A DNA stretch of 33,130 nt from assembly GCA_024280235.1 (NCBI GenBank), contig JAJRQN010000106.1, positions 1-33,130 on the forward strand, written 5' to 3'. Both the position numbers and the translations under genes were made by a program. Shown one piece after another: positions 7,519 to 33,130 of the stretch (positions within the stretch are counted from its first letter, which is position 1; every line of letters begins with the position of its first letter). Origin of the DNA: Bacteroidota bacterium (lineage in GTDB: Bacteria > Bacteroidota > Bacteroidia > Bacteroidales > F082). Under the pieces are notes generated by a model. That model was given only the letters and a program-made list of their open reading frames with translations, was not told the DNA's origin and searched no databases.

Positions 7519-8721
7519 TTATAAAATTTCCTGATAAAATGCCTCTAACCTCCCGATTATTTTTCGATTGTCATGGTTTGCTTCTATGAGCCTGCGGGCA
7601 TTTTTTCCAAGTCTGCGGGCTTCCTCCGGATTTTCATAAAGCCGGGTAATGGCGGACACAAAATCATCAGGAGTTTCGGCAATAAGAATATTTTCGCCAT
7701 CTTCATAATCAATCCCTTCGGCGCCTGTTTTTGTAGAAATCACCGCTTTTGCGAGACACATGCTCTCGATAATTTTAATTCGGACACCACTCCCGGAAAA
7801 AAGCGGCGCGATAGATATACTTTTCGACAGAATAAAATCCCGAGCTTCATGGACTTCACCCAAAACAATCACGTTTATTTCTTTCAAATTTAGAAGCCAC
7901 CGGGGCATAGCACGACCGGCAAGATAAAGTTTTAGATTTGGAAATTTATCTCTTGTCTTCGGCCATACCTCGTTTAAAAACCAGTGAATACCTTCTTCGT
8001 TGGGCATCCAGTTCATGGAGCCGATATGAAACAAAGCATTTTCCTGTGGGAGTTTGTCTTGTAATGAATAATCTTCAAGGTTTACACCAAACGGTATGGT
8101 CTCCACCGGCTTTTGGCAATAATTTTTAAAAAATCCGGCGTCTTTTTCCGTGATAGGTAATATGCCATCGAAACGGTTCAGTACGGTTTTTTCATAATTT
8201 TCGAGTGTGGTAAATAGGTGTTTCAGGTAAAACTTCTTTAGCGGATTCCGGCACGTAGAGAATATCCGTTTCCAGATAAGATGTTCGATATTGTGTGCAC
8301 GCAACACAATTTTAGCCTTGCTGTGTTCACGGATAATACCAAGATAAGGCGCCATAAAAAGCGTTTCCATCTGTATAATATCGAATTTTTCTTTTATCAG
8401 AATTCCAACAAGTTTTTCCTCAAAATCCTTTGAAATAAAGCGCTCAACGTGATATGATTTCTTTGAGAACAGATTTAAAAAGGCAGGAACAGACTTTACG
8501 GACAAATTGAGATGAACAAATTCGATACCGGTTTTTTCGCGATAAGCAGCAGGAATGTCTCCCGGAGCAACAGGATATTTATCCGAATCAACAGCGAGAA
8601 CTTTTACCAGAATTCCGGTGGCTGCCAGTCCTTCGATAAGGTTGTTCATTGCCATGGGGCCACCTTCCTTTGACGGCCAGGGCGATTTGTTACAAATAAA
8701 GAGTACCTTCAGCGGTTTCAT
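7519..8721 (-). CDS. Glycosyltransferase, GT4-like
   Basis: 400 aa; SPWPSKEGGPMAMNNLIEGL; IGSMNWMPNEEGIHWFLNEVWP; GSGVRIKIIESMCLAKAVISTKTGAEGI. Confidence 0.87.
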   Translation of the reverse strand: MKPLKVLFICNKSPWPSKEGGPMAMNNLIEGLAATGILVKVLAVDSDKYPVAPGDIPAAYREKTGIEFVHLNLSVKSVPAFLNLFSKKSYHVERFISKDFEEKLVGILIKEKFDIIQMETLFMAPYLGIIREHSKAKIVLRAHNIEHLIWKRIFSTCRNPLKKFYLKHLFTTLENYEKTVLNRFDGILPITEKDAGFFKNYCQKPVETIPFGVNLEDYSLQDKLPQENALFHIGSMNWMPNEEGIHWFLNEVWPKTRDKFPNLKLYLAGRAMPRWLLNLKEINVIVLGEVHEARDFILSKSISIAPLFSGSGVRIKIIESMCLAKAVISTKTGAEGIDYEDGENILIAETPDDFVSAITRLYENPEEARRLGKNARRLIEANHDNRKIIGRLEAFYQEIL

Positions 8722-12874: not shown

Positions 12875-13906
12875 TTAAAGTACAGAAATTTCTCCTCTTA
12901 GAGGCAAATTCATAATGACTCTAAATTTTCCGGAAGATAAATTCTCACCCAGCAAATACATTGTTTTTGTAAGTGCAGCCTCCGTCGTCATGTCGCCGCC
13001 ACTGATAATTCCCATCTTTTTTAATCTTAAGGAGGTGTCGTATTTTCCCTGTTCTACGGCACCGGCAGCACATTGGGAAATATTTATAATGTGTATTCCG
13101 TTTCCTATGGCTTTCTCCAGCAAATTGAGAAACCATTCTTCCGTAAGCGCATTTCCTGAGCCAAATGTCTCTAAAATTACAGCCCGTAATCCTGAAATAC
13201 CAAGTGTCGCTTCTACTACTTCTTTTGAGATGCCCGGAAATAATTTTAATATCGTTACACGGTTGTCCATGTTTTTATGAACTTTCAGCTTCTTAAAATT
13301 GGGTTTTAGAATATGGTGCTTATTATATTTAATGTAAACTCCCACATCGGCCAACACGGGATAGTTGGGCGAAACAAAAGCGTTGAAGTTCTCTGCATTA
13401 TATTTTATGGTACGGTTGGCACGCGTCAGGGAGTTCTCAAAATAGATGCAAACCTCCGGAATCAACGGCGTGTTGTCTTCGGTAGCCGCAGCCAGCTCAA
13501 TGGCGGTGATAAAATTCTCACGGCCATCGGTACGCAAAACACCAAGTGGCAATTGTGAGCCGGTAAAAATAACCGGTTTGTTCAGGTTCTCCAACATGAA
13601 ACTTAACGCCGAGGCAGTATAAGCCATAGTATCGGAACCGTGCAACACCACAAACCCGTCAAATGCTTCATAATTCTTCCCGATAATTTCGGCCAACTCC
13701 ACCCAGCGTGCAGGATTCATCTCGCTGGAATCGATGAGCGGATCAAAACAATGAAACTCCAAATGATAATGAAACCTTTTCAGCTCGGGAATCTGCTCAT
13801 AGATACCTTCAAAGTTAAAAGGTCGCAGGGAACCGGTTTTCGTGTCTTTTATCATCCCAATGGTTCCGCCGGTATATATAATGAGAAGGTTGATTTGATC
13901 TTCCAT
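12875..13906 (-). CDS. ansA: Type I (cytoplasmic) L-asparaginase
   Basis: Start set at MEDQINLLIIYTGGTIGMI; FVVLHGSDTMAYTASALSFML; FTGSQLPLGVLRTDGRENFITAIE. Confidence 0.93.
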   Translation of the reverse strand: MEDQINLLIIYTGGTIGMIKDTKTGSLRPFNFEGIYEQIPELKRFHYHLEFHCFDPLIDSSEMNPARWVELAEIIGKNYEAFDGFVVLHGSDTMAYTASALSFMLENLNKPVIFTGSQLPLGVLRTDGRENFITAIELAAATEDNTPLIPEVCIYFENSLTRANRTIKYNAENFNAFVSPNYPVLADVGVYIKYNKHHILKPNFKKLKVHKNMDNRVTILKLFPGISKEVVEATLGISGLRAVILETFGSGNALTEEWFLNLLEKAIGNGIHIINISQCAAGAVEQGKYDTSLRLKKMGIISGGDMTTEAALTKTMYLLGENLSSGKFRVIMNLPLRGEISVL

Positions 13907-13910
13907 ATTT

Positions 13911-14684
13911 CTATAATTTCTTAAAAAAGAGATTTTCGGCATTCATGGAGGTCATTTCGGCCACCTTTTCCACCGCAATGTTTTTTATTTCAGCTATTTT
14001 CTGTGCCACATAAAGCAGATAGGCGCTCTGGTTTCGTTTTCCCCGAAAGGGCGCCGGTGTCAGATAAGGGGCATCCGTTTCCAGCACCAGTGCTTCCAAA
14101 GGCAACTGAGTTACTACTTCGGCCAGCCCGCTGTTTTTAAAGGTAACAATCCCGCCAATGCCCATTTTAAATCCTAAATCCATGATTTGCTTAGCTTCGT
14201 CCACCGTTCCGGTAAAACAGTGAAAAACGCCTTTCATGTCATCGGTAAGCTCCTCTTTTACAATTTGATAAGTATATTCAAAAGCATTGCGTGTATGAAT
14301 GGATACTGCCAACCGGTATTTTTTGGCCAATTGCAATTGTGTACGAAAAACCTGCTTTTGGGCTTCTTCAAATGTACGATCCCAGTATAGGTCGATACCG
14401 ATTTCGCCCACGCCGCAGTAATTTCCCGTTTTCAATTCCTGTGCAACCAATGTGAGTTCGTCCTGATAGTTTTCTTTCACGGAAGTGGGATGGAGACCCA
14501 TCATTGCAAAACTATGTTCCGGAAAAGCGGCAGTCATCATTTTCAAATCGTGTAGTGTCGTGCTGTCAATGTTGGGGAGCAAAATCCGCTCCACGCCATT
14601 TTTTATTGCATTTAGCATTACCTCTTCGCGGTCTTCATCAAAATCGTCAAGATAAAGATGAGAATGTGTATCCGTTAAAAACAT
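13911..14684 (-). CDS. TatD family metal-dependent hydrolase
   Basis: 257 aa; TDTHSHLYLDDFDEDREEV; GVGEIGIDLYWD; HTRNAFEYT; FHCFTGTVDEAKQIMDLGF; LETDAPYLTPAPFRGKRNQ. Confidence 0.95.
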   Translation of the reverse strand: MFLTDTHSHLYLDDFDEDREEVMLNAIKNGVERILLPNIDSTTLHDLKMMTAAFPEHSFAMMGLHPTSVKENYQDELTLVAQELKTGNYCGVGEIGIDLYWDRTFEEAQKQVFRTQLQLAKKYRLAVSIHTRNAFEYTYQIVKEELTDDMKGVFHCFTGTVDEAKQIMDLGFKMGIGGIVTFKNSGLAEVVTQLPLEALVLETDAPYLTPAPFRGKRNQSAYLLYVAQKIAEIKNIAVEKVAEMTSMNAENLFFKKL

Positions 14685-14803: not shown

Positions 14804-15016
14804 TTATTTTTCCGGCAGTTGTTCTTCCTGCATATCTTTCAGCACAGCATTGACTTCCTCTTCGGTTTTGTACAAAACGGTTTGGCAAATGCGAATAAGC
14901 TTAGCAGCCCTTTTTACTTTCGCCGAAAGCTCGTCCACCGAAATATCCTGGTTCTCAATTTCTGCAACAATTTGTTCCAGCTCTTCAATTGCTTTAGAAT
15001 AGTTTTGTTTTTCCAT
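14804..15016 (-). CDS. xseB: Exodeoxyribonuclease VII small subunit
   Basis: 70 aa; YSKAIEELEQIVAEIENQDISVDELSAKVKRAAKLIRICQ; immediately downstream of xseA. Confidence 0.9.
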   Translation of the reverse strand: MEKQNYSKAIEELEQIVAEIENQDISVDELSAKVKRAAKLIRICQTVLYKTEEEVNAVLKDMQEEQLPEK

Positions 15017-15021
15017 GGTAT

Positions 15022-16416
15022 TTATTTTTTGTTTTTTTGCTCAACAATACTCTCAATTTCACCTCTGTACAGCTTTGTTATCATTTTATCGCCTTGTTTT
15101 ATATCTACTACCGATTTCAATACTTTTCCGTCAACCGTGGATATGCTGTATCCCTTTTTTAGGATATTTTCAGGTTTCATCAGGTTGATTTTACTTTCTA
15201 ATAGTCTGAGCCGGCTGTTTGCTTTTTGAGTAGATTGTTCCGCATAAATAGCCATTAGGTTTTGAATGTTTTTTAGTTTCTGTCTCTCCTGACGCATTTT
15301 TTGAACCGGTTGATATTTCAGGTGTAAAGCAATATTTATCAACTGTTCGTTTGCTTTGCCGAGTATCCTGACACCCGATTGCTCCACTCTTTTTATCAGA
15401 TAAATCCATTGGGTTTTATGGTGGCTAAACAGGTTCCGGGTATGCACATCAAACATTTTTGTCAGTTGTGAAAAATGTTGTTTCCCGAAAGTAAGTATTT
15501 CCAAAGTATTTCGTATTGTTTTTGATTTGGCATTTTCGAGCCTTACGGCAAAATTGTGAAACTGTTGAATAAGAAAATTACCTGCTTCAGTAGGCGTAAT
15601 TTTGTTAGCAAAGGCCACCATTTGTACGACTGTCAGGTTGGTGGAGTGTCCGATACCTGTAATCACCGGTAGCGGGCAGGTGGCAACTGCTTTGGCAAGA
15701 TAGTAATTATCGTAAGCGTTCAATCCCACATCTCCTCCGCCCCCGCGGATAATGGCAACCATATCAAACTCTTTGCGGCGGGCTGCAATGGCATTGAGTT
15801 GTTCGCCAATGGAACGCACTGCACCATCGCCCTGTAGCAGAGCCGGAAACAGCGAAAGTGAAAACCGGTAATGCCAGGCATTGTTTTCCAAAATATTTTT
15901 GAAATCGCTGTACCCTTTGCTCGTTTCAACGGAAATAATGGCAATTCGTTTTGGCAGAAGGGGCAGCTTCCTCTTTTTGTTTTCTTCAAAGAGACCTTCC
16001 TGTTTTAATCTTTCAACAGTGAGTTGTTTTTCGCGTGCCATCTCTCCAAGTGTAAAGCTCGGTTCGATGTCGAGAATGTTCAATGCGAGGCCGTAATGTT
16101 CATGATAGCCCACTTTGGCAAGAAACAAAATTTTCAATCCGTCTTTCAACGGTTCGCCGGTTACTGTTTTGAACTTCTGATTGATTTTGTTGTAGTTTCC
16201 CGCCCATATATTGGCTCTTATTTGCGCTTTAATCAGGCCATTGTGTTTTTCCACAAGATCGGGATAGCAATGGCCGCTTTGGGGATAAAAGTTAAGTTTT
16301 GTAATTTCTGCTTTTACCCAGTAATAATCAGGAAAAGCCCGGCTGACAGCCCGGCTGATGCCTGAGGATATTTCCAGCAGGCTGTATATTTTTCTGTTAT
16401 TTGCTATTTCCGGCAT
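15022..16416 (-). CDS. xseA: Exodeoxyribonuclease VII large subunit (divergent)
   Basis: 464 aa; IYSLLEISSGISRAVSRAFPDYYWVKAEI OB-fold start; RIAIISVETSKGYSDFKNIL; PVITGIGHSTNLTVVQMVAFANKITPTEAGNFLI. Confidence 0.92.
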   Translation of the reverse strand: MPEIANNRKIYSLLEISSGISRAVSRAFPDYYWVKAEITKLNFYPQSGHCYPDLVEKHNGLIKAQIRANIWAGNYNKINQKFKTVTGEPLKDGLKILFLAKVGYHEHYGLALNILDIEPSFTLGEMAREKQLTVERLKQEGLFEENKKRKLPLLPKRIAIISVETSKGYSDFKNILENNAWHYRFSLSLFPALLQGDGAVRSIGEQLNAIAARRKEFDMVAIIRGGGGDVGLNAYDNYYLAKAVATCPLPVITGIGHSTNLTVVQMVAFANKITPTEAGNFLIQQFHNFAVRLENAKSKTIRNTLEILTFGKQHFSQLTKMFDVHTRNLFSHHKTQWIYLIKRVEQSGVRILGKANEQLINIALHLKYQPVQKMRQERQKLKNIQNLMAIYAEQSTQKANSRLRLLESKINLMKPENILKKGYSISTVDGKVLKSVVDIKQGDKMITKLYRGEIESIVEQKNKK

Positions 16417-16581: not shown

Positions 16582-18819
16582 ATGAAAGCTGCTATTATCA
16601 CAACTTTTCCGCCGCGATAATGCGGAATTGCCACTTTTACCGAAAACCTTATCCGTGCGTTTCCGAATCAAACCCAAAACAACAAAGAAAATACTGCTGT
16701 TTTTGTAGTGGCTATGACCGATAAAGAAGGCGCTTATGCCTATCCCGACATTGTAAAATATACTATTCGTGAAAGCCATCAGAAAGATTACCTGAAAGCA
16801 GCCGACTTTATTAACTATTCGGCAGATATCTGTATTTTACAACACGAGTTCGGGATTTTCGGCGGTAACGATGGCGTTTATATCCTCCCACTGCTCAACC
16901 GGTTGAAAGTGCCGCTGCTGGTTACTTTCCATACTGTTTTGAAAGAGCCGACATTCAGCGAAAAAGCTATTCTTTCTGGAATTGGTAAGATAGCGGATAA
17001 AATTGTTGTAATGAGCAAGATGGCCGTTACCTTTCTCGAAGAGATTTATCAGATTCCGCGAAAAAAAATAGCCATTATCCAACATGGTTTCCCTGAATTT
17101 GATTACGAAAACCACGACCTCTACAAGCAAAAATTTCATTTGGAAGAAAAAATTCCGCTAATGACTTTTGGCCTGCTCAGCAGAGGAAAAGGCATCGAGA
17201 CCGTAATACGGGCACTGCCCCGTGTAGTTGAGAAATTTCCCAATGTGATATACTTGATTGTTGGAAAAACACATCCCGGTGTGGTTAAAGTTTCCGGCGA
17301 AAAATATCGTCACTTCCTGAGAAGACTGGTACAAAAAAACAAACTGGAAAAACATGTTGTCTTTATTGATAGTTTTCTTGAGGAACCGGATTTATGCGCC
17401 TATCTTTCGGCTACGGATATTTATATAACTCCCTACCCTGACGAAGCACAAATTACCAGCGGAACGCTTTCGTATGCGGTGGGTTCGGGAGCCGCAGTGG
17501 TTTCCACTCCATACTGGCATGCTACCGAATTACTCGACAAGGGTCGCGGTGTACTTTTCCCGTTTAACGACCACGAAGAATTGTCTAATGTATTACTTGA
17601 ATTGCTGGGGAACCCCGTAAAAATGAAGGCTATACGCAACCGGGCATTTGCCTATGGGCAAAAGATAAACTGGCCTTTGCAGGGGAAAAAATATCTGAGA
17701 GCAGCAGAACTGGCCATAAAAAAGTACGATGTGCCAAAAATTTACAAAGAAAAAATTATTGACCTCGCCTTATTGCCCTCTCTGAACCTGAGTCATATAA
17801 AACGGATGACGGATGTCACCGGAATTTTACAGCATGCACGGTATAATATCCCTGATTACAGACATGGTTACTGCCTCGATGATAATGCGCGGGCATTGTT
17901 GGTGATGAATATGGTTTATGAACGGCAAAAAGAGTCGGATGCTATTAACTTAATGTCCACCTACCTTTCTTATATAAACTACATGCAAAATCCGGATGGC
18001 TCTTTCCGGAATTTTCTCGGTTATGATCATTCATTTCTCGACAAAAAAAGCTCGGAAGATGCCTTTGGCAGAACCATCTGGGCGTTAGGGTTTCTATTGG
18101 CTCATTCGCCTAACGATGCTTTTTTCCAGATTGCACACCAGCTTTTTACTTTATCATCCGGCATCTTTCAGCAGTTGAAGAGCTTGCGGGGAATTGCCAA
18201 CACCCTTTTGGGAATCAACTATTATTTGAAACGCTTTCCGTGGGACGAAGGGATGGTGAACATTATGACCGGTTTGGCAGATAAACTAATCTATGCTTTT
18301 GAGAAAGAAAAAGAACACGACTGGCAATGGTTTGAACCGATTCTGACTTACGACAATGGTCTGATGCCGGCAGCTTTGTTTTGCACTTATGAAAATACCG
18401 AGCGAGAGAAATATTTGAAAGTAGCCGAAGAAAGTATGAACTTTCTGGAAAATGTTACGTTCAAAGGCGATCATTTCGCACTCATAGGAAACGATGGATG
18501 GTACCGGAAGGGAGAGAAACGCGCCAGGTTTGCCCAACAACCCGTAGATGCTATGGGAATGGTGCTTATGTACGAAAAAGCCTATCTTGTTACTGAAAAC
18601 AAAAATGATTATCTACACAAAATGTTTACTGCCTTCATGTGGTTTTTCGGCGAAAATGATTTGCACATACCACTGTACGACTATGAAACTAAAGGCTGTT
18701 GTGACGGACTGGAAAAAGAAGGCGTAAACCGCAATCAGGGCGCTGAAAGTATGTTGGCTTACTTACTATCGCATTTGACGGTTCTGGAAGCATTTGAAAA
18801 AGAAAAAATATTTAAATGA
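16582..18819 (+). pseudogene. GT4 glycosyltransferase with C-terminal helical (probably (alpha/alpha)6) domain; interrupted by an in-frame TAA at codon 13
   Basis: Manual translation from ATG 16582: MKAAIITTFPPR*CGIATFTENLIRAFPNQTQNNKENTAVFVVAMTDKEGAYAY..., continuing in frame into the 703 aa track ORF (16708..18819). GT4 motifs LLSRGKGIETVIRALP, YITPYPDEAQITSGTLSYAVGSGAAVVSTPYWHATELL; C-terminal YCLDDNARALLVMNMVYERQ and AFGRTIWALGFLL. It could be a functional gene with a sequencing error. Confidence 0.75.
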
Positions 18820-18829
18820 AAGGAGTGAA

Positions 18830-19759
18830 ATGGAACTTATCACCCGTTATTCACGAAACCCAATTCTTACCAAAGACGACGTGCCTTATCCGGTGGTAAC
18901 AGTGCATAACGCCGCTGTGGTGAAATATAATGAGAAATACATCATGGTTTTCAGGTCGCACCTGCACAACGGTCGTAGTATTTTGGGTATTGCCGACAGC
19001 AGCAACGGTGTCGATTTCAAAGTCAGGAAAAAACCATTTATGACGCCTGATGATAAAAGCCCTTATCATGAATATGAATCCTGGAGTATCGAAGACCCGC
19101 GGATTACCTTTATTGATAACGAATACATCATCACATACAGCGCTTACTCGCCCCATGGCATTCGTATCGGGCTGGCCAGAACCCGTGATTTTGAATCTGT
19201 GGAACGCTTTTCGATGATTACCGAAGCCGATTACCGCAATGTGGTCATCTTTCCTGAGAAATTCAACGGCCTTTATGCCCGCCTCGATCGTCCACACTCC
19301 GAAATAAGCCCATGGTCTGTTTGGATAACTTACTCACCTGATTTGCGTTATTGGGGTGAATCACAGCGAATTATGGACCCTGTGCCTTATCATTGGGACG
19401 AAATGAAAATTGGCCCCGGAGCGCCTCCCATCAAAACCGAAAAAGGTTGGCTCAGCATTTACCACGGCGTTTTCCCCACTATGGACGGCAGTGTTTACCG
19501 GTTGGGAGTAGCGTTACACGATCTACACAATCCCGCTAAAATAATCGGCGTGGGCGATGACTGGATTCTGCAGCCCGAAGACCCGTGGGAAATTACAGGA
19601 TATGTGCACAATGTGGTGTTTACCTGTGCGGCTGTCCCCGAACATAACGGCATGGTGCGTATCTATTGGGGTGGCGCCGACACGGTGATGTGTACCGGAA
19701 CGGCACGTATTGATGACCTTGTGGAATTGTGTTTGACAAAATCGAGAAAGGCTGTTTAG
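18830..19759 (+). CDS. GH130-family beta-mannoside phosphorylase-like protein
   Basis: Start at MELITRYSRNPILTKDDVPYPVVTVHNAAVVKYN with AGGAG 9 nt upstream; SWSIEDPRITFIDNEYIITYSAYS; KIGPGAPPIKTEKGWLSIYHGVF. Confidence 0.92.
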   Translation: MELITRYSRNPILTKDDVPYPVVTVHNAAVVKYNEKYIMVFRSHLHNGRSILGIADSSNGVDFKVRKKPFMTPDDKSPYHEYESWSIEDPRITFIDNEYIITYSAYSPHGIRIGLARTRDFESVERFSMITEADYRNVVIFPEKFNGLYARLDRPHSEISPWSVWITYSPDLRYWGESQRIMDPVPYHWDEMKIGPGAPPIKTEKGWLSIYHGVFPTMDGSVYRLGVALHDLHNPAKIIGVGDDWILQPEDPWEITGYVHNVVFTCAAVPEHNGMVRIYWGGADTVMCTGTARIDDLVELCLTKSRKAV

Positions 19760-19790
19760 AAATTTGATTTAAAGATATATTTTCAAAAGT

Positions 19791-19852
19791 CGGGATTGCA
19801 AACCCCGGCGAACAGTAAAATTATTTGCTCTTCCGGATTTGTAATCCGGAAG
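19791..19852 (+). repeat. REP-like double palindrome
   Basis: Two adjacent stem-loops: CGGGATTGCAAACCCCG (19791..19807, one mismatch) and CTTCCGGATT-TGT-AATCCGGAAG (19830..19852, perfect 10-bp stem), related cores GGATTxGxAAxCC; intergenic between GH130 and GT4. Confidence 0.6.
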
Positions 19853-19887
19853 TTTAGGCTAATCCAAAATCATAAACAGAGTTTATA

Positions 19888-20904
19888 ATGAAAAACATAA
19901 AAATAGCTATCCTGTCCCCTGCCTGCTGGCGGACACCGCCGCGGAAATACGGCCCGTGGGAACAGGTAGCTTCCAACATTGCCGAAGGACTGGTAGCAAG
20001 AGGTTATGATGTAACACTATTTGCCACAGCCTATTCTATCACCGGAGGGAGATTAGAAGCCGTTTGCGACCGACCTTATGGCGAACATCCCGAAATAGAT
20101 GCCAAAGTGTGCGAGTGCCTGCACATTTCGCATTTTATGGAAATGGCCGAAAACTTCGACATATTACACAACAACTACGACTTTCTTCCGCTGACTTATT
20201 CGCGGCTTATCAAAACGCCCATGGTAACCACTATCCATGGATTTTCGTCACCGAAAATTCTGCCGGTTTTCAAAAAGTATAACGACACCAGCTATTATGT
20301 CTCCATTAGCAATTCCGACCGAAGTCCGGAACTAAATTATGTGGCCACAGTTTACAACGGCATCAATCCTGAAGAATTTCATCTACAAGAAAAAACAGGA
20401 AATTATCTTTTGTTTTTCGGAAGAATTCATCCTGAAAAGGGAACATTCGAGGCTATTCAAATTGCCAAAAAATCAGGTAGGAAACTCATTATTTCCGGTT
20501 TAATTCAGGATGAAGCTTACTTTCAGAAAAAGGTGAAGCCTTTGATAGATGACAAGCAAATTATTTATGTGGGTAATTCCGGTCCGCAGCGCCGTGATGA
20601 ATTACTTGGCAACGCCTATGCGCTGCTGCATCCCGTTAGTTTTGAAGAACCTTTCGGACTAAGTGTAGCCGAAGCTATGATGTGCGGAACCCCGGTTGTT
20701 GCATTCAACAGGGGTTCCATGCCCGAACTGGTTCTCCCCGGAAAAACCGGATTTCTGGTGAACACAGTGAAAGAAGCCGTCAATGTTTTGCCACAAATAG
20801 AAAACATTCGCCGGAAAGGCTGTCGAACGATAGCACTGGAAAAATTCGGTATCGACAAAATGACATCAAGCTATCTTAAACTATATCAAAAGATTCTTTC
20901 ATAA
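19888..20904 (+). CDS. Glycosyltransferase, GT4 family
   Basis: 338 aa; CWRTPPRKYGPWEQVASNIAEGLVARGYDVTLFAT; FGRIHPEKGTFEAIQIAKKSG; FEEPFGLSVAEAMMCGTPVVAFNRGSMPELV. Confidence 0.94.
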   Translation: MKNIKIAILSPACWRTPPRKYGPWEQVASNIAEGLVARGYDVTLFATAYSITGGRLEAVCDRPYGEHPEIDAKVCECLHISHFMEMAENFDILHNNYDFLPLTYSRLIKTPMVTTIHGFSSPKILPVFKKYNDTSYYVSISNSDRSPELNYVATVYNGINPEEFHLQEKTGNYLLFFGRIHPEKGTFEAIQIAKKSGRKLIISGLIQDEAYFQKKVKPLIDDKQIIYVGNSGPQRRDELLGNAYALLHPVSFEEPFGLSVAEAMMCGTPVVAFNRGSMPELVLPGKTGFLVNTVKEAVNVLPQIENIRRKGCRTIALEKFGIDKMTSSYLKLYQKILS

Positions 20905-20909
20905 TAAGG

Positions 20910-22391
20910 CTACTCTTTAACCGCAACCATTTTATCTAACAAATCATCAAGTTTAAATTTTACAATACTCGATCGGGTGTCGGAAGCGGCATACGGCAAG
21001 ACAATCCATCCATTGTGATGGATGACACCACAAGCGTAAACCACATTGGGGACATAACCGTTTCGCTCGCTTTCCTGTGGAACAAGCAGTGGTTCTTTCA
21101 ACTCGGCAATCACTTTTGTCGGGTCTTTCAAATCGAGCAACAAAGCACCAAGAGCATAGGTCCTAACAGGACCTACACCATGAGTGAGCAGCAGCCATCC
21201 TCTTTCCGTTTTTATGGGAGAACCACTGTTCCCTATTTGGATAAACTCCCAGAAAAATTTAGGTTCACGAATAAGAATTGGATTTTCCCAGTAGTTCAGG
21301 CTATCGCTATACATAATGTACAGGTTCTCGTTATCGTTTCGCGAGATAATGGCAAATTTCCCATCAATGCGTTCGGGAAAAAGGGCCATACCTTTATTTT
21401 GCGAACCCGGCCCCATCATTGTACTGATTCTAAAACGGAAAAAATCTTTGGTTTCAATCAGCTGAGGCAAAATAGAAATTCCGTTATAAGCTGTGTACGG
21501 CGCATAATAAGTGTACGAGCCATTGCCATTTTTAAAAGCCACAAAACGAGCATCTTCTATGGCTCGAACATCGGTCGTAGATCGCGGGAAGATAACCCGT
21601 TCCGAAATGTCAGAATCATCGTGAAATTCAATCTCATAATTGGAGCGCAGTATCCAGTAGAGTGTATCAATAGCTGTTTCTTCGTTTCGGGTTAAAGTTC
21701 CTTTTTCACGAAAATGCTTCACACTTTCGTTGAGTTCTTCAGAAGTAAAAGTTTCCAGCAATTCATCAAAAATACTTTTCACCGTCTGAAAATGCCCCAT
21801 ATCCGAAAGCTTCATAATAAAATCCTGCTTGCTGTACTCCACAGAATGAATAATCTTGGCCATCTCAACAAGATGACTAAAGTCGTCCATCTCAATATTC
21901 CCATCGGTATCGAGTTTACCGCTCCGAAACACCACCGACGACATGTGCCCTTCGCCCACCGCCCGAAAACTAATGATTACTTTCAGGTTATGATTAAGCA
22001 TATCATCCGGAGTTTGAAAAGGATGCGGAACAATAGATGGATTAAACAAAGCAGCAGCTTCAATAGAGTATTCGAGGGTAAAAAAAGCACCTATGAGCAA
22101 CTTGTTTTCAAGTGGCAGGTCGTTGTAAATTGTAATATCAAGATGCTTGAGTATGTCGTCAAAGTTATCTTTAAAAACTCTTTTTACGTTCTTATGGCGA
22201 TTCTCAAAATTGGCAATTATCTGTTTCAGAATACGATTTCTTTCCTTATCGGAAAGTTTCAGAACACGATCGAAGACCTTATATATCCGAACCTTGTCCA
22301 GACCGAAAAGTTTTGTAATAACCCGCCTTTCATCGGGCAAAAAGGAAAGTTTCTGACGATAAATTTTCACTTTACTCTGGGCGTAATCCAT
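20910..22391 (-). CDS. GH130-family glycoside phosphorylase-like protein with N-terminal extension
   Basis: 493 aa; AIEDARFVAFKNGNGSYTYYAPYTAYNG; NKGMALFPERIDGKFAIISRNDNENLYIMYSDSLNYWENP; IGNSGSPIKTERGWLLLTHGVGPVRTYALGALLLD; about 200 aa N-terminal extension. Confidence 0.88.
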   Translation of the reverse strand: MDYAQSKVKIYRQKLSFLPDERRVITKLFGLDKVRIYKVFDRVLKLSDKERNRILKQIIANFENRHKNVKRVFKDNFDDILKHLDITIYNDLPLENKLLIGAFFTLEYSIEAAALFNPSIVPHPFQTPDDMLNHNLKVIISFRAVGEGHMSSVVFRSGKLDTDGNIEMDDFSHLVEMAKIIHSVEYSKQDFIMKLSDMGHFQTVKSIFDELLETFTSEELNESVKHFREKGTLTRNEETAIDTLYWILRSNYEIEFHDDSDISERVIFPRSTTDVRAIEDARFVAFKNGNGSYTYYAPYTAYNGISILPQLIETKDFFRFRISTMMGPGSQNKGMALFPERIDGKFAIISRNDNENLYIMYSDSLNYWENPILIREPKFFWEFIQIGNSGSPIKTERGWLLLTHGVGPVRTYALGALLLDLKDPTKVIAELKEPLLVPQESERNGYVPNVVYACGVIHHNGWIVLPYAASDTRSSIVKFKLDDLLDKMVAVKE

Positions 22392-24611: not shown

Positions 24612-25751
24612 TTATGGTAAAGAACGATACTGATTTTTCAACCATAATTTATAAACAGGGTCCAAAATTTCCGGTTTTCCGGGTGTTTGTTCATCAATAA
24701 TTTCTTTATTGATGAGTGCTTTTTTTATCCGAATCACGTTGGATGAGCTGTTCAAATGGTAGTTGCTAACGGTATTGTTAGAAGTCAGTTTTTCCACACC
24801 ATCAATCAGTGCCAGCAAAAAGTTCATCTGGGATGTCGTGAGTGCTTCTGTCATATTTTGAAAAAGGAGACTTAGTTGCAAAACCAACGATTCAATGGCT
24901 TCATCAATTATTTTGTCTGTTATTTTTTTTCCACTCCTGAGCCAGCAATTTTGTGCCAGCTGTTGAACGTAATAGGGATGATTCTCAACAAGTAAAGCAA
25001 TACGGGAGGCCTGTTTTCTGGTAATTGTTTTGCCGGTGTCAGTAAATCTTTCTCTGATAAAATCTTTCCAGTATTTTTCAGGAATCTTATTTAAAAACAT
25101 CAAATCTCCGAACTTGTAAAATGGCATGGAAGGAGAGGCAAATACCTCCATCAACATGTGTCGCTTGCTTCCATACAAACAATAGGAAGTGCGTTGGTGT
25201 GTTTGCCAAAACGACCGGACTTTCTTTTGAAAAGCGACCGGATTATCAAAAAAGCCAATATTTTGAAATTCATCAATACTGATGATAATTTTGTAATCTT
25301 TTTCTTTGGCAATAGCTTCGGGAAGATTCAAAATTTCATCCGGTTGCTTTTTTATTTCAGACCAGTCAAGTCCAAAACTGAATTCCTGTTGTGCATCGGG
25401 TGAAAACGTTATTCTGGGAGACCATTGTTTTAAAAATCTTTTCGTATCGGCAATAAGCTCTTCTATTTTCCCCGAAACTTCTTTGAATATTTTTTCCGAC
25501 AGGGTTTTATAAAAATCCTCCTCGGTACGAATATTGAACATGTCAAGATAAATAATTTTTATCCGGCTATTTTGCTTCGTTATTTCCTCCCCGGCTTTTT
25601 TTACCAGCGAAGATTTTCCCCACCTTCGCGGTGAAATTAACAGCGAGTTTATTCCGGGAAGAAAATTCTGCTTCAAATGGCGCAGTTCCTCCTCTCTGTC
25701 TGTAAAATTTTTATCGGTAGCAAGTTTCCCGAAAACAAAAGGTGTTTCCAT
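24612..25751 (-). CDS. AAA/ATPase_2-like (archaeal-type STAND) ATPase
   Basis: METPFVFGKLATDKNFTDREEELRHLKQNFLPGINSLLISPRRWGKSSLVKKA (P-loop variant); IIISIDEFQNIGFF (Walker B); winged-helix-like C-terminus. Confidence 0.85.
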   Translation of the reverse strand: METPFVFGKLATDKNFTDREEELRHLKQNFLPGINSLLISPRRWGKSSLVKKAGEEITKQNSRIKIIYLDMFNIRTEEDFYKTLSEKIFKEVSGKIEELIADTKRFLKQWSPRITFSPDAQQEFSFGLDWSEIKKQPDEILNLPEAIAKEKDYKIIISIDEFQNIGFFDNPVAFQKKVRSFWQTHQRTSYCLYGSKRHMLMEVFASPSMPFYKFGDLMFLNKIPEKYWKDFIRERFTDTGKTITRKQASRIALLVENHPYYVQQLAQNCWLRSGKKITDKIIDEAIESLVLQLSLLFQNMTEALTTSQMNFLLALIDGVEKLTSNNTVSNYHLNSSSNVIRIKKALINKEIIDEQTPGKPEILDPVYKLWLKNQYRSLP

Positions 25752-25766
25752 AGCTTTCTTTTTTCG

Positions 25767-25798
25767 CAAAGATAAATAAAAGATTTATAACTAACAAA
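25767..25798 (-). promoter_or_regulatory. Consensus Bacteroidota promoter TTTG-N20-TATCTTTG for the ATPase gene
   Basis: On the - strand: TTTG (25798..25795), 20-nt spacer, TATCTTTG (25774..25767), then ATG at 25751. Confidence 0.65.
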
Positions 25799-25836
25799 AA
25801 TATTAGTAACTATTTTGTTAGTAACGAATTTGTTAC
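25791..25836. repeat. Inverted/direct repeat array overlapping the ATPase -33 element
   Basis: CTAACAAAA (25791..25799) / TTTTGTTAG (25813..25821) inverted repeat; TTAGTAAC direct repeat at 25803 and 25818; GTAAC (25821..25825) / GTTAC (25832..25836) inverted repeat. Confidence 0.65.
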
Positions 25837-27218
25837 TTGTGCACTTTCCGAATGAATTCTTCTACTTCAGGCACACCTCCCTGATAAATAAGATAGCCAT
25901 TGTATGGCTCGCGCAACGTAATCTCATCATTCACCGGCGTGAGCATCATCTCTTTTACCTTTTGCGGATCGTCGGTTTGTCCCAGAATCCAGCTTAGCTT
26001 CACCCAGGCCACTTCAGGCAGCATATTTCCGGTGGGAATAATGCCACGCGCCATCATATCACGCCCCGTATCGTACACAAACATATGCACATAGCCCCAC
26101 AATGTCTGTAAGGTCATAAACATGTGAACACCTTTGGCATGGGCACGCTCAATGGCCGGATAAAGCTCTTTGTTGACGTGTCCCAAGCCGGTTCCCACAA
26201 AAATAATCCCCCGATATCCTTTGTCAATCATGGCATTTAGTACATCGGGATGCATTCCCGGATAATAGTAAAGCATGGTAACTTTTTCACTGAAATAGGG
26301 CAAAATTTTCACGTTTTTATCTGCCCGCCGTTTGTTGTAATGCTTTTTGATGGGGATAATCTCTTTACGGCTGATGCGTGCCAGCGGCGTATCGCCAATG
26401 GTTCGGAAAGTGGAGCGGTAAGAGGAGTGCATTTTCCTGACACGCGTACCTTTGTGCAGCAGACCGTATTCGTCTGAAGTAGGGCCAAACATGCAGACCA
26501 TCACCTCGGCAATATCGGAATGGCCGGCAGCTTTCATGGCATGCATCAGGTTCAGGGCTGCATCGGAGCTGGGACGGTCGGACGAACGCTGTGAACCCAC
26601 CAGTACTACCGGCACCGGCAGATTTTGACACATAAATGTCAGTGCGGCACCGGTGTGATGCAGCGTGTCGGTACCATGTCCAATGACAATACCATCAATG
26701 CCGTTTTTTATCTCTGCTCCAATGGCTTTGGCGAGAGCAATGTATTGTTTTGGCCCCATGTTTTCACTGAAAACGGCAAACACTTTTTCTGTTTCAAGGT
26801 TACAGATATCCGCCAGTTCGGGGACAGCACCGTAAAGTTCGCCGGGGGAGAATGCCGGAATCACAGCACCTGTCCGGTAGTCGAGCCGGGAGGCAATGGT
26901 TCCGCCCGTACCGAATAGTTTTACGCGTGGCAGTCCCGGAGTAATCGGAAATTCCTTTTCCGGAATTTTGTAATTCGCTTTGTGATAACCGGTTTCCTTC
27001 ATCTTTTTTACCGTCTTCACATCGATGCCAATGTTATATCCGGTAGCAATTTTCAATACAATATGCTGGTCATCATCGTTTTCGGCACGAGGCAATACGG
27101 TTCCTTCAAAATGTCCGCGGGTTGTTTCAATGCGGGTTGTTCCCCACACACGCACCTGAAATTTCTTCAGCAGCGTTAGTGCATCGCCTTTGTATCCCTG
27201 AAAAATATCATTGTCCAT
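25833..27218 (-). CDS. gatD: Glutamyl-tRNA(Gln) amidotransferase subunit D (archaeal-type GatD)
   Basis: 461 aa; about 90 aa N-terminal domain, then LFGTGGTIASRLDYRTGAVIPAFSPGELYGAVPEL; VFSENMGPKQYIALAKAI; GHGTDTLHHTGAALTFM; VGSQRSSDRPSSDAALNLM; VRKMHSSYRSTFR; MLPEVAWVKLSWILGQTDDPQKVKEMM. Confidence 0.94.
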   Translation of the reverse strand: MDNDIFQGYKGDALTLLKKFQVRVWGTTRIETTRGHFEGTVLPRAENDDDQHIVLKIATGYNIGIDVKTVKKMKETGYHKANYKIPEKEFPITPGLPRVKLFGTGGTIASRLDYRTGAVIPAFSPGELYGAVPELADICNLETEKVFAVFSENMGPKQYIALAKAIGAEIKNGIDGIVIGHGTDTLHHTGAALTFMCQNLPVPVVLVGSQRSSDRPSSDAALNLMHAMKAAGHSDIAEVMVCMFGPTSDEYGLLHKGTRVRKMHSSYRSTFRTIGDTPLARISRKEIIPIKKHYNKRRADKNVKILPYFSEKVTMLYYYPGMHPDVLNAMIDKGYRGIIFVGTGLGHVNKELYPAIERAHAKGVHMFMTLQTLWGYVHMFVYDTGRDMMARGIIPTGNMLPEVAWVKLSWILGQTDDPQKVKEMMLTPVNDEITLREPYNGYLIYQGGVPEVEEFIRKVHK

Positions 27219-27253
27219 TAGGTTCGGTTTTTGTTCGCTTTGGCGAAAATTTT

Positions 27254-29197
27254 TTATTGAAGCTGTTTCAACTTTTCACTCAGCACCGACAAGTCCATAT
27301 TGCCGAGTGCCGTTTTTCGCAACCGGCCCATTACCCAGTTGTGTTCTTTTGTTTTATCAGGATGAATTTTCCCTTCTGTGAATTTGGCCAACAGAATGGG
27401 AACACGCGCCAAAATTTCCTTTTCGGAATGCCGCTTGAATCCGATGGCTGTAAGCACGGAATCAAATTCCATCTTGGGATAAGCCACAATCGTTGGCAAC
27501 ATGCTTTCTGCCAGCTGATGATGCAGTCTGTTTTCTTTAAGAAATGAAAACAGCGGAGACAAAATCTTGAACGGAAAATTTTTTCTGTTACTGTAATGAT
27601 GCAAGGCAAATTTCAGCTTCTCGCCAAAAAAAATACCGAGATAAAGCGGAGAGATGTCGGTTTCTTTTGTGATTTTTTGCATCATTGGAAAAAGATTCTT
27701 TGAAAACAGGAAGGCATAAACATCTTCGGGTACATTCCACTTTTTCAGAGTTTTGTAACGCAGAATCATCTCTTCCGGCAGGCTTTTTCCGATATCCTCA
27801 ATGTATTTATCATCGAGAGGAATGGGCGCCGAATCGGTATCGGGATACATACGGTTGGCACCGGGAAGTACGCGCTCAAAAATGGTCGTCCCATCCGGAA
27901 GTGATTTGCGGGTTTCTTTGGGAACGCCTTCGAAAGCCATGCGACAACGTTCTTCGATAGTTTCCAGCGCAGTGGGAATATCTTCCTGTGCTCCCCATAT
28001 CACTATCCAGCCATCTTTTTCCTCCGGTTGAAGCTTCTGAATAATTTTTTCCCGATCTTTTTTCCCGGGCAATGGTTTCAGCTCCTCACTATGAATCATG
28101 TTGGGTTGCTCAAGACATGCTATCACTTTCAGTCTTCCCGAAAGTTCGTCGGCAAAGAGGCTGCCCGGCTGAATAAAATGCGACAGAATTCCCTGAAACT
28201 CAGGCAACCTGATAGCAAGTACCTTTTCTGCTTTTTTCAACGGAGTATAACGCAACATACCTGTAACATCCGCATAAAACATCTTCCATGAAGAAGCTTT
28301 TATCCGTTTGTTCAATATTTTTTTGATACGCAGCAATGCCCATTGCCGGAAAACCTCATTATGTGTAAGTTCGGGAATCCATTTGGTGTGGGCAACGCCT
28401 TTTATCTCGACACGTGTTCCGCCTTTGCAGCTTACATTCACGTCTTGCCGTGCAGCTCCCATACCGGTGCGCACTTTGCCGGTGCTGCGGTTCAAAAAAC
28501 GGATGTAGTTGCAGGCCTCGCACACCTCTTCCGGGTTGACACAATCGGGATAAGTTACCGTTTCGATGAGTGGCATGCCCAACCGGTCAGTTTTGTAAAT
28601 TCTTTTATGTCCGATGTCGGAAATTTCGCGACAGGCATCCTCTTCAATACTCAGTTGGATCAGCCGCACCTTTTTGTGAGGCAACTCCAGTTCTCCTTCG
28701 ATGCCCACAATAGCCGTTCGCTGAAAACCCGTGGGAATGCTACCGTCGAGATATTGCTTGCGGGTGATGTGTACCTCGCCCACAATGTTCATCTTGCAAA
28801 GCATGGAAATCTCCAACGCCTGTGCCAGTGCTTCACGGTTCATCGGAAACGGCGGTGTATCATCAATTTCATAAGTGCAGGCATTTTCGTTGTTGATGCG
28901 ATAGGTAATCTCTTTGCGGGTTTTAAATTCCATGAGTGCCGTGCCATCGTACTCGCCGAGTTCACTCAACGTGGGTCGCATATGCCGGACAATTTCTGCA
29001 TTAAAATCGTCATCATCGTTGTAAATCCCTGCCGGACAATGACAAAACAGCTTTTCCTGCGTCAGCAATTGCTGGTGTACTTCCAATCCGGACATAAATC
29101 CAAGTCGGTCATAAGTTTCCTGCGTTGCTTCTTTGCGGGGAAGGTAGCCGGTTTTGTGGCGGCTTTCTTCAAAATTCTTTTGGGGAGAAAAGGACAT
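27254..29197 (-). CDS. gatE: Glutamyl-tRNA(Gln) amidotransferase subunit E (archaeal-type GatE)
   Basis: 647 aa; GLEVHQQLLTQEKLFCHCPAGI; YEIDDTPPFPMNREALAQALEISMLCKMNI; DGSIPTGFQRTAIVGIEGEL; EEDACREI; RLGMPLIETVTYPD; RTGMGAARQDVNVSCKGGTRVEIKGV; C-terminal FTEGKIHPDKTKEHNWVMGRLRK. Followed by gatD. Confidence 0.94.
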   Translation of the reverse strand: MSFSPQKNFEESRHKTGYLPRKEATQETYDRLGFMSGLEVHQQLLTQEKLFCHCPAGIYNDDDDFNAEIVRHMRPTLSELGEYDGTALMEFKTRKEITYRINNENACTYEIDDTPPFPMNREALAQALEISMLCKMNIVGEVHITRKQYLDGSIPTGFQRTAIVGIEGELELPHKKVRLIQLSIEEDACREISDIGHKRIYKTDRLGMPLIETVTYPDCVNPEEVCEACNYIRFLNRSTGKVRTGMGAARQDVNVSCKGGTRVEIKGVAHTKWIPELTHNEVFRQWALLRIKKILNKRIKASSWKMFYADVTGMLRYTPLKKAEKVLAIRLPEFQGILSHFIQPGSLFADELSGRLKVIACLEQPNMIHSEELKPLPGKKDREKIIQKLQPEEKDGWIVIWGAQEDIPTALETIEERCRMAFEGVPKETRKSLPDGTTIFERVLPGANRMYPDTDSAPIPLDDKYIEDIGKSLPEEMILRYKTLKKWNVPEDVYAFLFSKNLFPMMQKITKETDISPLYLGIFFGEKLKFALHHYSNRKNFPFKILSPLFSFLKENRLHHQLAESMLPTIVAYPKMEFDSVLTAIGFKRHSEKEILARVPILLAKFTEGKIHPDKTKEHNWVMGRLRKTALGNMDLSVLSEKLKQLQ

Positions 29198-29250: not shown

Positions 29251-29280
29251 CGAAATACCGGAAAAGGGAAAAAGGAAGTG

Positions 29281-29298
29281 TCCAAGCGTCCGCTTGGA
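29281..29298. repeat. 18-bp near-perfect palindrome TCCAAGCGTCCGCTTGGA (REP-like or terminator for sir2)
   Basis: TCCAAGCG-TC-CGCTTGGA; intergenic, 5 nt beyond the sir2 stop, followed by a pyrimidine-rich tract on the - strand. Confidence 0.6.
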
Positions 29299-29303
29299 CC
29301 ATG

Positions 29304-30077
29304 TTATATATTGAACCCATCTCCGTTTTTATGGCAGGAGAGCAGGCGGCAAAGTTGTTTCATGCCGTCCACGGCACCAATGTTAAGGAAGATGTCGGTG
29401 TAGTGGTCGGTAAACGGGGATGGTTTCAGGTTGATTTCGATAATGATAGCTCCCTGTTCTTTAGCCAGTTGTGGTATGGTATTAGCCGGATAAACTTCAG
29501 CTCGTGTTCCAATGACAAGCAACACATCGGCTTTCTTTACCTCATCAAAAGCTTTTCTTTTGACAACAGGGGAAAGTTTCTCATTAAAAAAGACAAAATC
29601 GGGTTTCAATACGCCGCGACACACAAAACAGGTGGGGGGCAGGTAATTCAAATCGGCATAAGTGTAATCATATTCGGTAGAACATTTGGTGCAAACCAGC
29701 CGCCGGTAAGTGCCATGCAACTCAATTACCTTTTGGCATCCGGCTTCCTGATGCAAATGGTCAATATTTTGGGTAATAATGGACCGGATAACACCTTGTT
29801 GTCCCATAACCGACAAGATATGATGTGCCAGATTGGGTTTTACATCGGTGAGTGGTTCGTAAAAAATCTTTTTGATAATTTCCCAGGTAAGTCCGGGCTT
29901 TTTATGAAAAAAGTCGATGTTGAAATAGTTTGGATCCACCTCTTTCCAGATACCACCTTCACCACGAAATGTTGGTAGTCCGCTTTCTGCTGAAATGCCC
30001 GCACCTGTAAAAACAACAGTGTATTTTGCCTGACGTATGGCTTCGGCTGCTTCCCTGATATTCTTCGTTATTTTCAA
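29304..30077 (-). CDS. Sir2-family NAD-dependent protein deacylase
   Basis: 257 aa; VVFTGAGISAESGLPTFRGEGGIW; ITQNIDHLHQEAG; ELHGTYRRLVCTKCSTEYDY...CFVCRGVLKPDFVFFNE (zinc Cys motif); VIGTRAEVYPAN. Confidence 0.95.
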   Translation of the reverse strand: MKITKNIREAAEAIRQAKYTVVFTGAGISAESGLPTFRGEGGIWKEVDPNYFNIDFFHKKPGLTWEIIKKIFYEPLTDVKPNLAHHILSVMGQQGVIRSIITQNIDHLHQEAGCQKVIELHGTYRRLVCTKCSTEYDYTYADLNYLPPTCFVCRGVLKPDFVFFNEKLSPVVKRKAFDEVKKADVLLVIGTRAEVYPANTIPQLAKEQGAIIIEINLKPSPFTDHYTDIFLNIGAVDGMKQLCRLLSCHKNGDGFNI

Positions 30078-30346: not shown

Positions 30347-31750
30347 ATGGGACGTAAGGTAAAGATAGTAGCCACGTTGGGGCCGGTGAGTGATAATCGG
30401 GAAAGCGTTTATAAACTGATAAAAGCCGGAGTGAATGTTTTTAGGTTGAATTTCTCGTACGGGACGCATGAAAGTCATTTAAAAAGTTTTCAACTCATCA
30501 GGCAATGTGCTTCAGAGCTGGGAAGAGAAGTTGCTGTAATGCAGGATATCTGTGGCCCGAAAATTCGCATCAGGGGAATGGAAGACATTCGTGAGGTGAA
30601 TAAAGGTGATAAGCTCATCATGGCAAAAACAGCGAAAGATGAAGCCTTTTCCATCACCTATCCCCACATTATCGACCAGCTGGAGGAAGGTGATGAGGTC
30701 TATTTTGCCGATGGAACCGTCAAATCGAAAGTGGAAAAAAAATTAGCTAATACGCTGATTCTACGGGCTATGACCAGCGGCCAGCTGCGCGAAGGAAAAG
30801 GTGTCAACATTCCCAAATCAGGAATAAAAATGTCCGCGCTGACCGAAAAAGACAAAGCTGACCTGAAATTTGGCGCCCAAATTGGTATCGACATTGTTGC
30901 CGTTTCGTTTGTGGAAACAGCAAATGACATTCTCGAAGCCAGAAAAATTCTTACCGACAATGGCTCCGATGCCTGGATTATTGCTAAAATAGAACGGAAA
31001 TCTGCTATGAAAAATCTGGATGAAATTCTGGCTGTTACCGATGGTATCATGGTCGCCCGCGGTGATCTGGGTGTGGAAGCAGGTATTTATTCCGTTCCGG
31101 GCTTGCAAAAAGAGATGATTCGGAAAGCCAACGAACGGGCACTGCCTGTCATCACCGCTACTCAAATGCTGACCTCCATGTTGCATTCCGCGTCTCCCAC
31201 ACGTGCTGAGATTTCCGACATTGCCAACGCCGTTTATGACGGGACAGATGCAGTGATGCTTTCAGACGAGACAGCTGTAGGTGCTTTTCCGATAGAGGCC
31301 GTGGAAGTAATGGTACAAACCCTGATGGAAACACAGGCTCATCTGCCGAAAATAAAAAAGATAAAACCCGATAAGACGGAAGGATTTGCACATGCTGCTG
31401 CGGAAATATCCGGGGATGTACCTTGCAAGGCTATTGTTTCGTTTACCACTTCAGGATATACCGCCCGGCAAATTGCCAAATTCAGGCCACGGAAGCCATT
31501 GTATGCCGTTACGTTTGACGAAAAAATCAGCCATCGTCTCGCGCTTGTCTGGGGTGTGGAAAAGATTTTTTCTATCAAGCTGGACATTAGCGAAAACCAC
31601 ATGATTTACCGGTTTTTGCAAAAAGTAAACAAAGAAGAACAATACATTATTACTATGGGCTCGCATTCCGGCGTAAAAGGAAGTACTAATATGGTGCGCC
31701 TGCTTGACGAAGCTGCAAGAAGAAAGATTTTTGATCGTTTTGAGAAATAA
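30347..31750 (+). CDS. pyk: Pyruvate kinase
   Basis: 467 aa; KIVATLGPVSDN; AGVNVFRLNFSYGTHESH; DICGPKIRI; IIAKIERKSAMKNLDEIL; GIMVARGDLGVE; ITATQMLTSMLHSASPTRAEISDIANAVYDGTDAVMLSDETAVGAFPIEAVEVM. Confidence 0.96.
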   Translation: MGRKVKIVATLGPVSDNRESVYKLIKAGVNVFRLNFSYGTHESHLKSFQLIRQCASELGREVAVMQDICGPKIRIRGMEDIREVNKGDKLIMAKTAKDEAFSITYPHIIDQLEEGDEVYFADGTVKSKVEKKLANTLILRAMTSGQLREGKGVNIPKSGIKMSALTEKDKADLKFGAQIGIDIVAVSFVETANDILEARKILTDNGSDAWIIAKIERKSAMKNLDEILAVTDGIMVARGDLGVEAGIYSVPGLQKEMIRKANERALPVITATQMLTSMLHSASPTRAEISDIANAVYDGTDAVMLSDETAVGAFPIEAVEVMVQTLMETQAHLPKIKKIKPDKTEGFAHAAAEISGDVPCKAIVSFTTSGYTARQIAKFRPRKPLYAVTFDEKISHRLALVWGVEKIFSIKLDISENHMIYRFLQKVNKEEQYIITMGSHSGVKGSTNMVRLLDEAARRKIFDRFEK

Positions 31751-31823: not shown

Positions 31824-33130
31824 ATGATTGAGGCTTTCAGGCAACATATTGAACAACACAATCTTTGTCGGCTGGATGAAAATATTCTTGTGGCGGTAAG
31901 CGGTGGTGTAGATTCGGTGGTAATGTTACATTTGTTACATTGTGCCGGATATAACCTTTCCATTGCCCATTGTAATTTCCAGCTCCGGGGCAAAGAATCA
32001 GATGGTGACGAAAATCTTGTCAGAAATAGGGCAACACAATATGGGATTCCTGTTTTTGTGAAACGCTGCGACACCCGTGCGTTTGCCGAAAAAGAAAAAA
32101 TCAGTATTGAACTGGCAGCCCGCCAACTTCGTTACGACTGGTTTGCCGAAATCATGGAAAAACATCATTTTCAAAAGTTGGCCATTGGTCATAACAAAGA
32201 TGATGATGCGGAGACTTTTTTTATTAAACTTTTGCGCGGTGCCGGTCCGGATGGATTGAAAGGCATTCTGCCCCGACGCGAAAACATTATCCGTCCTTTG
32301 TTGTTTGCTTCGCGCAAAGAGATTATGATTTATGCCAAAGAACATCAACTCTTGTTTCGGGAAGATTCGTCCAATGCTTCGGACGATTACCTCCGCAACC
32401 GTATTCGTCATCATCTGCTCCCTTTTTATGAAAAAGAATTTCCGGGCGCAACGAAGGCACTGATCGAAAGCCTGAAGAAATTGAAAATCACCGAAATCAT
32501 CTTTCACCAACTGCTTGAAGAAAAAAAAAACCTGCTTTTCATCCGAACGGAAAATAACATAAGGATAGACAAAACCGCTATTCAACATCTGAAGCCAAAA
32601 GTCGACTGGCTTTACCTTCTTTTGAAAGAGTTCGGATTTAACCACAGCACCATTGGTGAGCTCTGCCATACGTTGGAAATTTCAGGTACCGGACAGTTGT
32701 TTTATTCGGAAAACTACGCGTTACTCAACGACAGTAACCAGCTCATTATCAGAAAGAATACTACTTCTTCCCAAAAGGAATTTATCATAAAAGACTTGGG
32801 TAAGCCATTAACAGAACCGGTTCATTTAAATTTTGAAACTATCCCAAACCACCCTGATTTTACTTTTTCTCCGGATAAAACCGTGGCATGGTTTGATGCG
32901 GACAAACTTTTGTTGCCATTAAAACTGCGACACTGGCGTCAGGGCGACCGGTTTATTCCATTCGGTATGAATGGTAGTAAGCTGCTGAGCGATTTTTTCT
33001 CAGATGAAAAAATTGACCGCTTTGTGCGGGAAGAGCTGTGGCTGCTGTTTTCCGGCAATGAAATTATTTGGGTTACAGGCTATCGCGCTTCCAATCGTTT
33101 TCGGGTAACCGGCAAGACAAAAAATATATT
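31824..33130 (+). CDS. tilS: tRNA(Ile)-lysidine synthase, 3' truncated by window end
   Basis: Manual translation: MIEAFRQHIEQHNLCRLDENILVAVSGGVDSVVMLHLLHCAGYNLSIAHCNFQLRGKESDGDENLVRN...LAIGHNKDDDAETFFIKLLRGAGPDGLKGI...REDSSNASDDYLRNRIRHHLLPF. Open at position 33130, so absent from the ORF track. Confidence 0.93.
   Translation, partial: MIEAFRQHIEQHNLCRLDENILVAVSGGVDSVVMLHLLHCAGYNLSIAHCNFQLRGKESDGDENLVRNRATQYGIPVFVKRCDTRAFAEKEKISIELAARQLRYDWFAEIMEKHHFQKLAIGHNKDDDAETFFIKLLRGAGPDGLKGILPRRENIIRPLLFASRKEIMIYAKEHQLLFREDSSNASDDYLRNRIRHHLLPFYEKEFPGATKALIESLKKLKITEIIFHQLLEEKKNLLFIRTENNIRIDKTAIQHLKPKVDWLYLLLKEFGFNHSTIGELCHTLEISGTGQLFYSENYALLNDSNQLIIRKNTTSSQKEFIIKDLGKPLTEPVHLNFETIPNHPDFTFSPDKTVAWFDADKLLLPLKLRHWRQGDRFIPFGMNGSKLLSDFFSDEKIDRFVREELWLLFSGNEIIWVTGYRASNRFRVTGKTKNI

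Follow-up and report, generated by a model that had tools for sequence, protein, structure and literature searches.

The stretch of DNA analysed here, which we call the window, comprises 33,130 nucleotides from a draft Bacteroidota genome (G000; 3.14 Mb in 275 contigs, 95.65% complete, 4.84% contamination). An earlier note on it had pointed to adjacent, co-directional and full-length gatE and gatD genes within bacterial surroundings. Both open reading frames are found on the minus strand at the positions listed below, and the flanking genes that it named (sir2, pyk, tilS, lptF, xseA and xseB) are all present.

25833-27218, minus strand: gatD, full-length, 461 aa; glutaminase subunit D with GatD_N and asparaginase domains
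27219-27253, minus strand: gap of 35 bp between the two genes, gatE coming first
27254-29197, minus strand: gatE, full-length, 647 aa; Glu-tRNA(Gln) amidotransferase subunit E
29249-29220, minus strand: candidate Bacteroidota-type gatE promoter, TTG-N19-TAnnTTTG; a pattern match, suggestive only
29280-29299, minus strand: terminator-like hairpin between sir2 and gatE; a pattern match, suggestive only
29304-30077, minus strand: sir2-family NAD-dependent protein deacylase; upstream neighbour, outside the GatDE system
24612-25769, minus strand: ATPase_2-type AAA ATPase; downstream neighbour, outside the GatDE system
30347-31750: pyk, flanking gene
31824-33128: tilS, partial, flanking gene
8735-10237: lptF/G, flanking gene
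15022-16416: xseA, flanking gene
14804-15016: xseB, flanking gene

The TAnnTTTG-type promoter that had been proposed does precede gatE, as TTG-N19-TAnnTTTG just 5' of the gene, but about one match to this pattern is expected by chance per window. Conserved operon partners of gatDE were sought and rejected beyond close relatives, as the neighbours vary among genera: the neighbourhood is partly common to four genomes (G012, G013, G019 and G022), and the AAA ATPase is retained only in the nearest relative, G003. Elsewhere in the window, glycosyltransferases and two GH130 mannooligosaccharide phosphorylase-like genes (18794-19759 and 20910-22391) occupy positions 16708-22391.

As judged by profile and fold comparisons, both genes are confirmed to be full-length and orthologous to archaeal gatE and gatD, and the earlier description of a complete archaeal-type GatDE thus stands: curated cut-offs are passed, archaeal complexes are the best matches and the motif residues are kept. 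GatD reaches 503 bits with TIGR02153 (cut-off 324) and contains PF00710, PF17763 and PF18195, the last being the GatD_N domain (45.4 bits against a cut-off of 25.7); the extra N-terminal domain that had been said to set it apart from AnsA is therefore there. GatE scores 402.6 bits with TIGR00134 (cut-off 319.6) and 474 bits with PRK04028 (cut-off 456). For both subunits the best matches in the PDB are 2d6f, with chain A for GatD, and 1zq1. These archaeal GatDE complexes, from M. thermautotrophicus and P. abyssi, respectively, have the same domain order, catalytic motifs and curated equivalogs as the pair in the window. The profile of bacterial GatE aligns over nearly its full span to both archaeal GatE chains, and the best fold matches of an AlphaFold model (pLDDT 79) are again 2d6f (E=1.6e-37) and 1zq1. 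For a possible AspRS-like insertion domain in GatE, the segment aligns to archaeal GatE, but a GAD domain is absent from the Pfam matches of GatE and the folds of AspRS are matched weakly (E above 0.02). Identity to the archaeal proteins amounts to 46% for GatD and 36-41% for GatE.

Two other assignments were considered and discarded. A type I L-asparaginase (AnsA) is excluded for gatD by the GatD_N domain together with the score above the GatD cut-off. The window does encode a true type I L-asparaginase at 12875-13942 on the minus strand (TIGR00519, 300.9 bits), which gives 197.8 bits with the GatD model against the cut-off of 324 and is about 30% identical to the GatD of G003. GatE, in turn, is not the GatB of GatCAB, since GatB models yield 48-118 bits against cut-offs of 315-680 and every one is thus far from reached. 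Bacterial GatCAB catalyzes the same type of reaction, and GatB shares with GatE the catalytic domain PF02934 and a tail region, to which the bacterial GatE profile also aligns. Its glutaminase is GatA, while that of GatDE is the asparaginase-type GatD.

Are the two genes maintained as a working pair? In GatD, residues T107, T183-D184 and K262 are kept, and the motifs occur in 114-117 of 117 GatD sequences; T107, T183, D184 and K262 are what we take, from general knowledge of asparaginases, to be the glutaminase active site. GatE retains E39 and H41 (GLEVHQQL), E185-E186-D187 and E212 (DRLGMPLIE), with motifs kept in 132-136 of 136 sequences, and E39, H41, E185-E186 and E212 presumably form the kinase and transamidase site, going by what is generally known of GatB and GatE. 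Between the window and G003, dN is 0.03 for gatD and 0.09 for gatE with a dS of 1.3-1.6, which is near saturation; the resulting dN/dS of about 0.02 and 0.06, with dN far below dS, indicates strong purifying selection on both genes. At each of the 124 loci with both genes, gatE is followed by gatD on one strand, usually spaced within 100 bp, and from this genetic pairing the two proteins would be expected to form one complex. Four further loci (L341, L351, L378 and L394), whose GatE proteins share 67-83% identity, carry gatE with neither gatD nor an asparaginase-like frame in the 3.7-5 kb of downstream DNA; their GatD may be unlinked to gatE.

We consider it probable that gatE and gatD encode a working bacterial glutamyl-tRNA(Gln) amidotransferase. 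The single GluRS would load glutamate onto tRNA-Gln, GatE would use ATP to phosphorylate the glutamate side chain, and GatD would free ammonia from glutamine or another amide donor and hand it to GatE, giving Gln-tRNA(Gln). The earlier note had left open whether GatDE replaces or coexists with GlnRS and GatCAB, and had proposed searching the genome for glnS, gatA/B/C and gltX. Searching it by protein family revealed one GluRS and one intact GlnRS (751 bits, both anticodon-binding domains present) in G000, next to an AsnRS and tRNA-Gln genes with the anticodons UUG and CUG. GatB, through which the presence of GatCAB was judged, was not found in G000, where the sole PF02934 match is GatE. The archaeal setting, in which GlnRS is absent and GluRS non-discriminating, thus does not apply to G000; it describes the usual surroundings of the enzyme and is no structural criterion for it. 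Coexistence holds there and replacement does not: with GlnRS intact, GatDE is a second route. GlnRS would make Gln-tRNA(Gln) directly, while GatDE would add the second route and repair mischarged Glu-tRNA(Gln), which is the likeliest reason for keeping both. The division of labour between GatDE and GlnRS, the specificity of GluRS and the activity of GatDE itself are inferred. The position of R358 of T. thermophilus GluRS, tried as a reader of GluRS specificity, proved uninformative, being Arg in nearly all sequences including those of GatCAB-only and GatDE-only genomes.

The intact GlnRS also counts against a working GatDE, as the enzyme is not needed in G000 for coverage; the same is true of four genomes of the same genus that do without GatDE, and the genomes in which GatDE appears alone are two drafts. 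One could imagine that GatDE has been repurposed in GlnRS-bearing species, either as a plain asparaginase or glutaminase or for another amidation substrate. The redundancy with GlnRS in most hosts and the faster evolution of GatE (57-85% identity) compared to GatD (75-95%) would fit such a change of role. However, GatE has throughout retained its kinase motifs as well as its partner subunit, and the apparently GatDE-only genomes of genus g12 would need GatDE for Gln-tRNA. We regard repurposing as very unlikely.

The best evidence that bacterial GatDE works comes from this sister genus, g12, where GatDE apparently stands in place of GlnRS. Both sampled genomes are drafts, G022 in about 30 contigs at 96% completeness and G035 at 93%. 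They contain gatDE and a single GluRS, and neither GlnRS nor GatB was found when the two were searched; likewise, no glnS lies in the roughly 150 kb around gatDE of G022. Their tRNA-Gln(UUG) is of the ordinary Bacteroidales type with U1-A72 and A73. Should GlnRS and GatB truly be missing from g12, Gln-tRNA(Gln) has to come from GatDE there, which would then be the only route and has to accept U1-A72. The part of the earlier proposal that spoke of replacement thus seems to hold for g12. More broadly, GatE or GatB occurs in all seven glnS-lacking relatives that are more than 80% complete, a modest trend uncorrected for kinship. The missing glnS of G009, G017 (which also lacks gltX) and G033 was left out as proof because these assemblies are less complete or fragmented.

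A change in the identity elements of tRNA-Gln had also been anticipated, together with an inspection of the acceptor stem. The Bacteroidales tRNA-Gln examined here carries U1-A72 rather than the archaeal A1-U72, which archaeal GatDE is reported to read (PMC9499178). As a feature of the substrate, this pair says more about specificity than about whether the enzyme belongs to the GatDE family. It is hence not the tRNA that would differ from archaea, since it stays bacterial, but the recognition by GatDE, which in these hosts would act on a U1-A72 tRNA-Gln. The discriminator A73, an archaeal trait, was rejected as a signature of GatDE, since it is also found in G004 and G050, which lack the enzyme.

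Could the two routes instead be split between isoacceptors, with GlnRS serving mainly tRNA-Gln(CUG), and GluRS with GatDE serving tRNA-Gln(UUG)? The two species are unlike in D-loop and variable loop, and in 14 Bacteroidales genomes from several families tRNA-Gln(CUG) lies at most a few hundred bases directly downstream of glnS, a synthetase next to its own tRNA (G010, G013, G015, G018, G023, G025, G027-G031, G040, G041 and G059; the loci include L036, L037, L038, L045, L046 and L054). Moreover, G022, G033 and G035, all without glnS, have only tRNA-Gln(UUG) as judged by pattern. On the other hand, genomes without GatDE, such as the closed G004, hold both isoacceptors with GlnRS alone, and G016, G019, G026 and G032 possess glnS with no CUG match. 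In G000 itself, tRNA-Gln(CUG) (contig C49, locus L238, 160-233) comes after asnS (289-1755) and not beside glnS. Taken together, this split appears unlikely, and a second route combined with repair is preferred. The same contig contains a degenerate tRNA-Gln(CUG)-like copy (7475-7546, 35.8 bits) in opposite orientation, about 7.2 kb from the intact gene.

How widespread is the pair? In the window's family, GatE is found in 28 of 36 genomes, one of them as a fragment, and GatB in none of the 36; in other families of the order GatE is sporadic. A class-wide sample yields nine of 395 genomes above the GatE cut-off, and a phylum-wide sample 31 of 398 above that of GatD, three of which are single-contig genomes (G546, G552 and G698). 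Outside the window's class, genomes with GatDE mostly encode GatB and GlnRS as well. At L493 of G462, glnS adjoins gatD convergently, so that both routes lie side by side. A scan of named genomes gave at least 594 confirmed relatives, and among the 80 listed nearly all are titled Bacteroidales or Bacteroidetes. Within the window's own genus, four genomes lack GatDE, including a closed one. In closed G004 the genes acs-acd-sir2 are present without the gatE-gatD that follows them in G003, which shows a clean gain or loss of the pair at this site.

This distribution bears on the concern that the contig might be chimeric with archaeal DNA, or that such DNA was binned with a bacterium. A draft of 275 contigs with 4.84% contamination invites that thought, but the same pair and neighbours recur in G003, and the pair is present across the family and in the three single-contig genomes. 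The closed genomes and the shared neighbourhood as good as refute an artefact, which retains almost no probability, and the distribution across samples excludes archaeal contamination as a general explanation.

The trees inform on the origin of the pair. For GatE, the tree, which has very long branches, was rooted with GatB as a distant outgroup, and only three archaeal sequences were found, two from the PDB and one from a haloarchaeal plasmid fragment. Two large bacterial groups emerge, one of the window's class (100/100) and one of other classes (99/98), and the fork uniting all bacterial GatE has a support of 94/53. The GatE of G572, a genome from another class, sits within the group of the window's class, probably by transfer. 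L504 of G758 holds a very divergent GatE/GatD pair, whose GatE sits apart from the remaining bacterial groups on a long branch. In the GatD tree, the bacterial sequences form one clade (100), as do those of the window's family (96). Both subunits are deeply separate from their archaeal counterparts and largely track bacterial families.

The earlier note had offered two origins, horizontal acquisition from archaea or a little-described bacterial lineage. Published accounts place the GatDE family in archaea, and the GC content of gatDE (46-48%) is slightly above that of its neighbours (37-45%), as might be expected of a recent import. Yet long stems part the bacterial from the archaeal sequences in both subunits, the GatD clade follows the family, the two archaeal PDB GatE proteins are 52% identical to each other and only 36-41% to that of the window, and many families as well as closed genomes carry the pair. 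Given this deep separation, family-following pattern and presence in closed genomes, recent acquisition from archaea is highly improbable, and the bacterial lineage is favoured by trees and distribution alike. Bacterial GatDE would then probably be an old resident of the Bacteroidota, inherited for the most part vertically, though lost repeatedly and at times transferred.

Direct and indirect routes within one cell have a precedent in Deinococcus, Thermus and Bdellovibrio, where GlnRS, AsnRS and GatCAB occur together (PMC4206432), as direct and indirect routes do in the window's genome. There, GatCAB is explained by the formation of asparagine on tRNA-Asn; this explanation does not carry over to GatDE, whose described substrate is Glu-tRNA(Gln). 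Compared to archaeal GatDE, the pair described here differs in residing in bacteria, in having GlnRS alongside in most hosts and in facing U1-A72 instead of A1-U72. Recent papers describe GatDE as "exclusively" archaeal (PMC8762117, 2022), as now found only in archaea (PMC9499178, 2022) and as occurring in archaea only (PMC8007984, 2021). In the open-access literature, to which the search was mostly confined with few subscription papers, no paper describing a bacterial GatDE was found; automatic annotation pipelines probably already name such proteins GatD and GatE. With due care, we regard as new the bacterial GatDE lineage, its coexistence with GlnRS, the apparently GatDE-only bacteria and the U1-A72 tRNA-Gln of the hosts.

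A bolder reading, which we hold to be doubtful, sees GatDE as an ancient bacterial enzyme and not an archaeal import, with its own U1-A72 rule and sharing glutamine decoding with GlnRS by isoacceptor. If it were true, both the view of GatDE as archaeal only and its tie to the archaeal tRNA-Gln would be wrong. A study that surveyed GluRS, GlnRS and GatCAB across bacteria found that 12 of 14 Bacteroidetes have GlnRS without gatCAB, and it read a lack of gatCAB as a sign that the indirect route is defunct and GluRS discriminating (PMC3927822); bacterial GatDE would break this inference wherever it is present. It also makes two questions testable: is GatDE older than the split between bacteria and archaea, and how does an amidotransferase come to read a different base pair in its tRNA?
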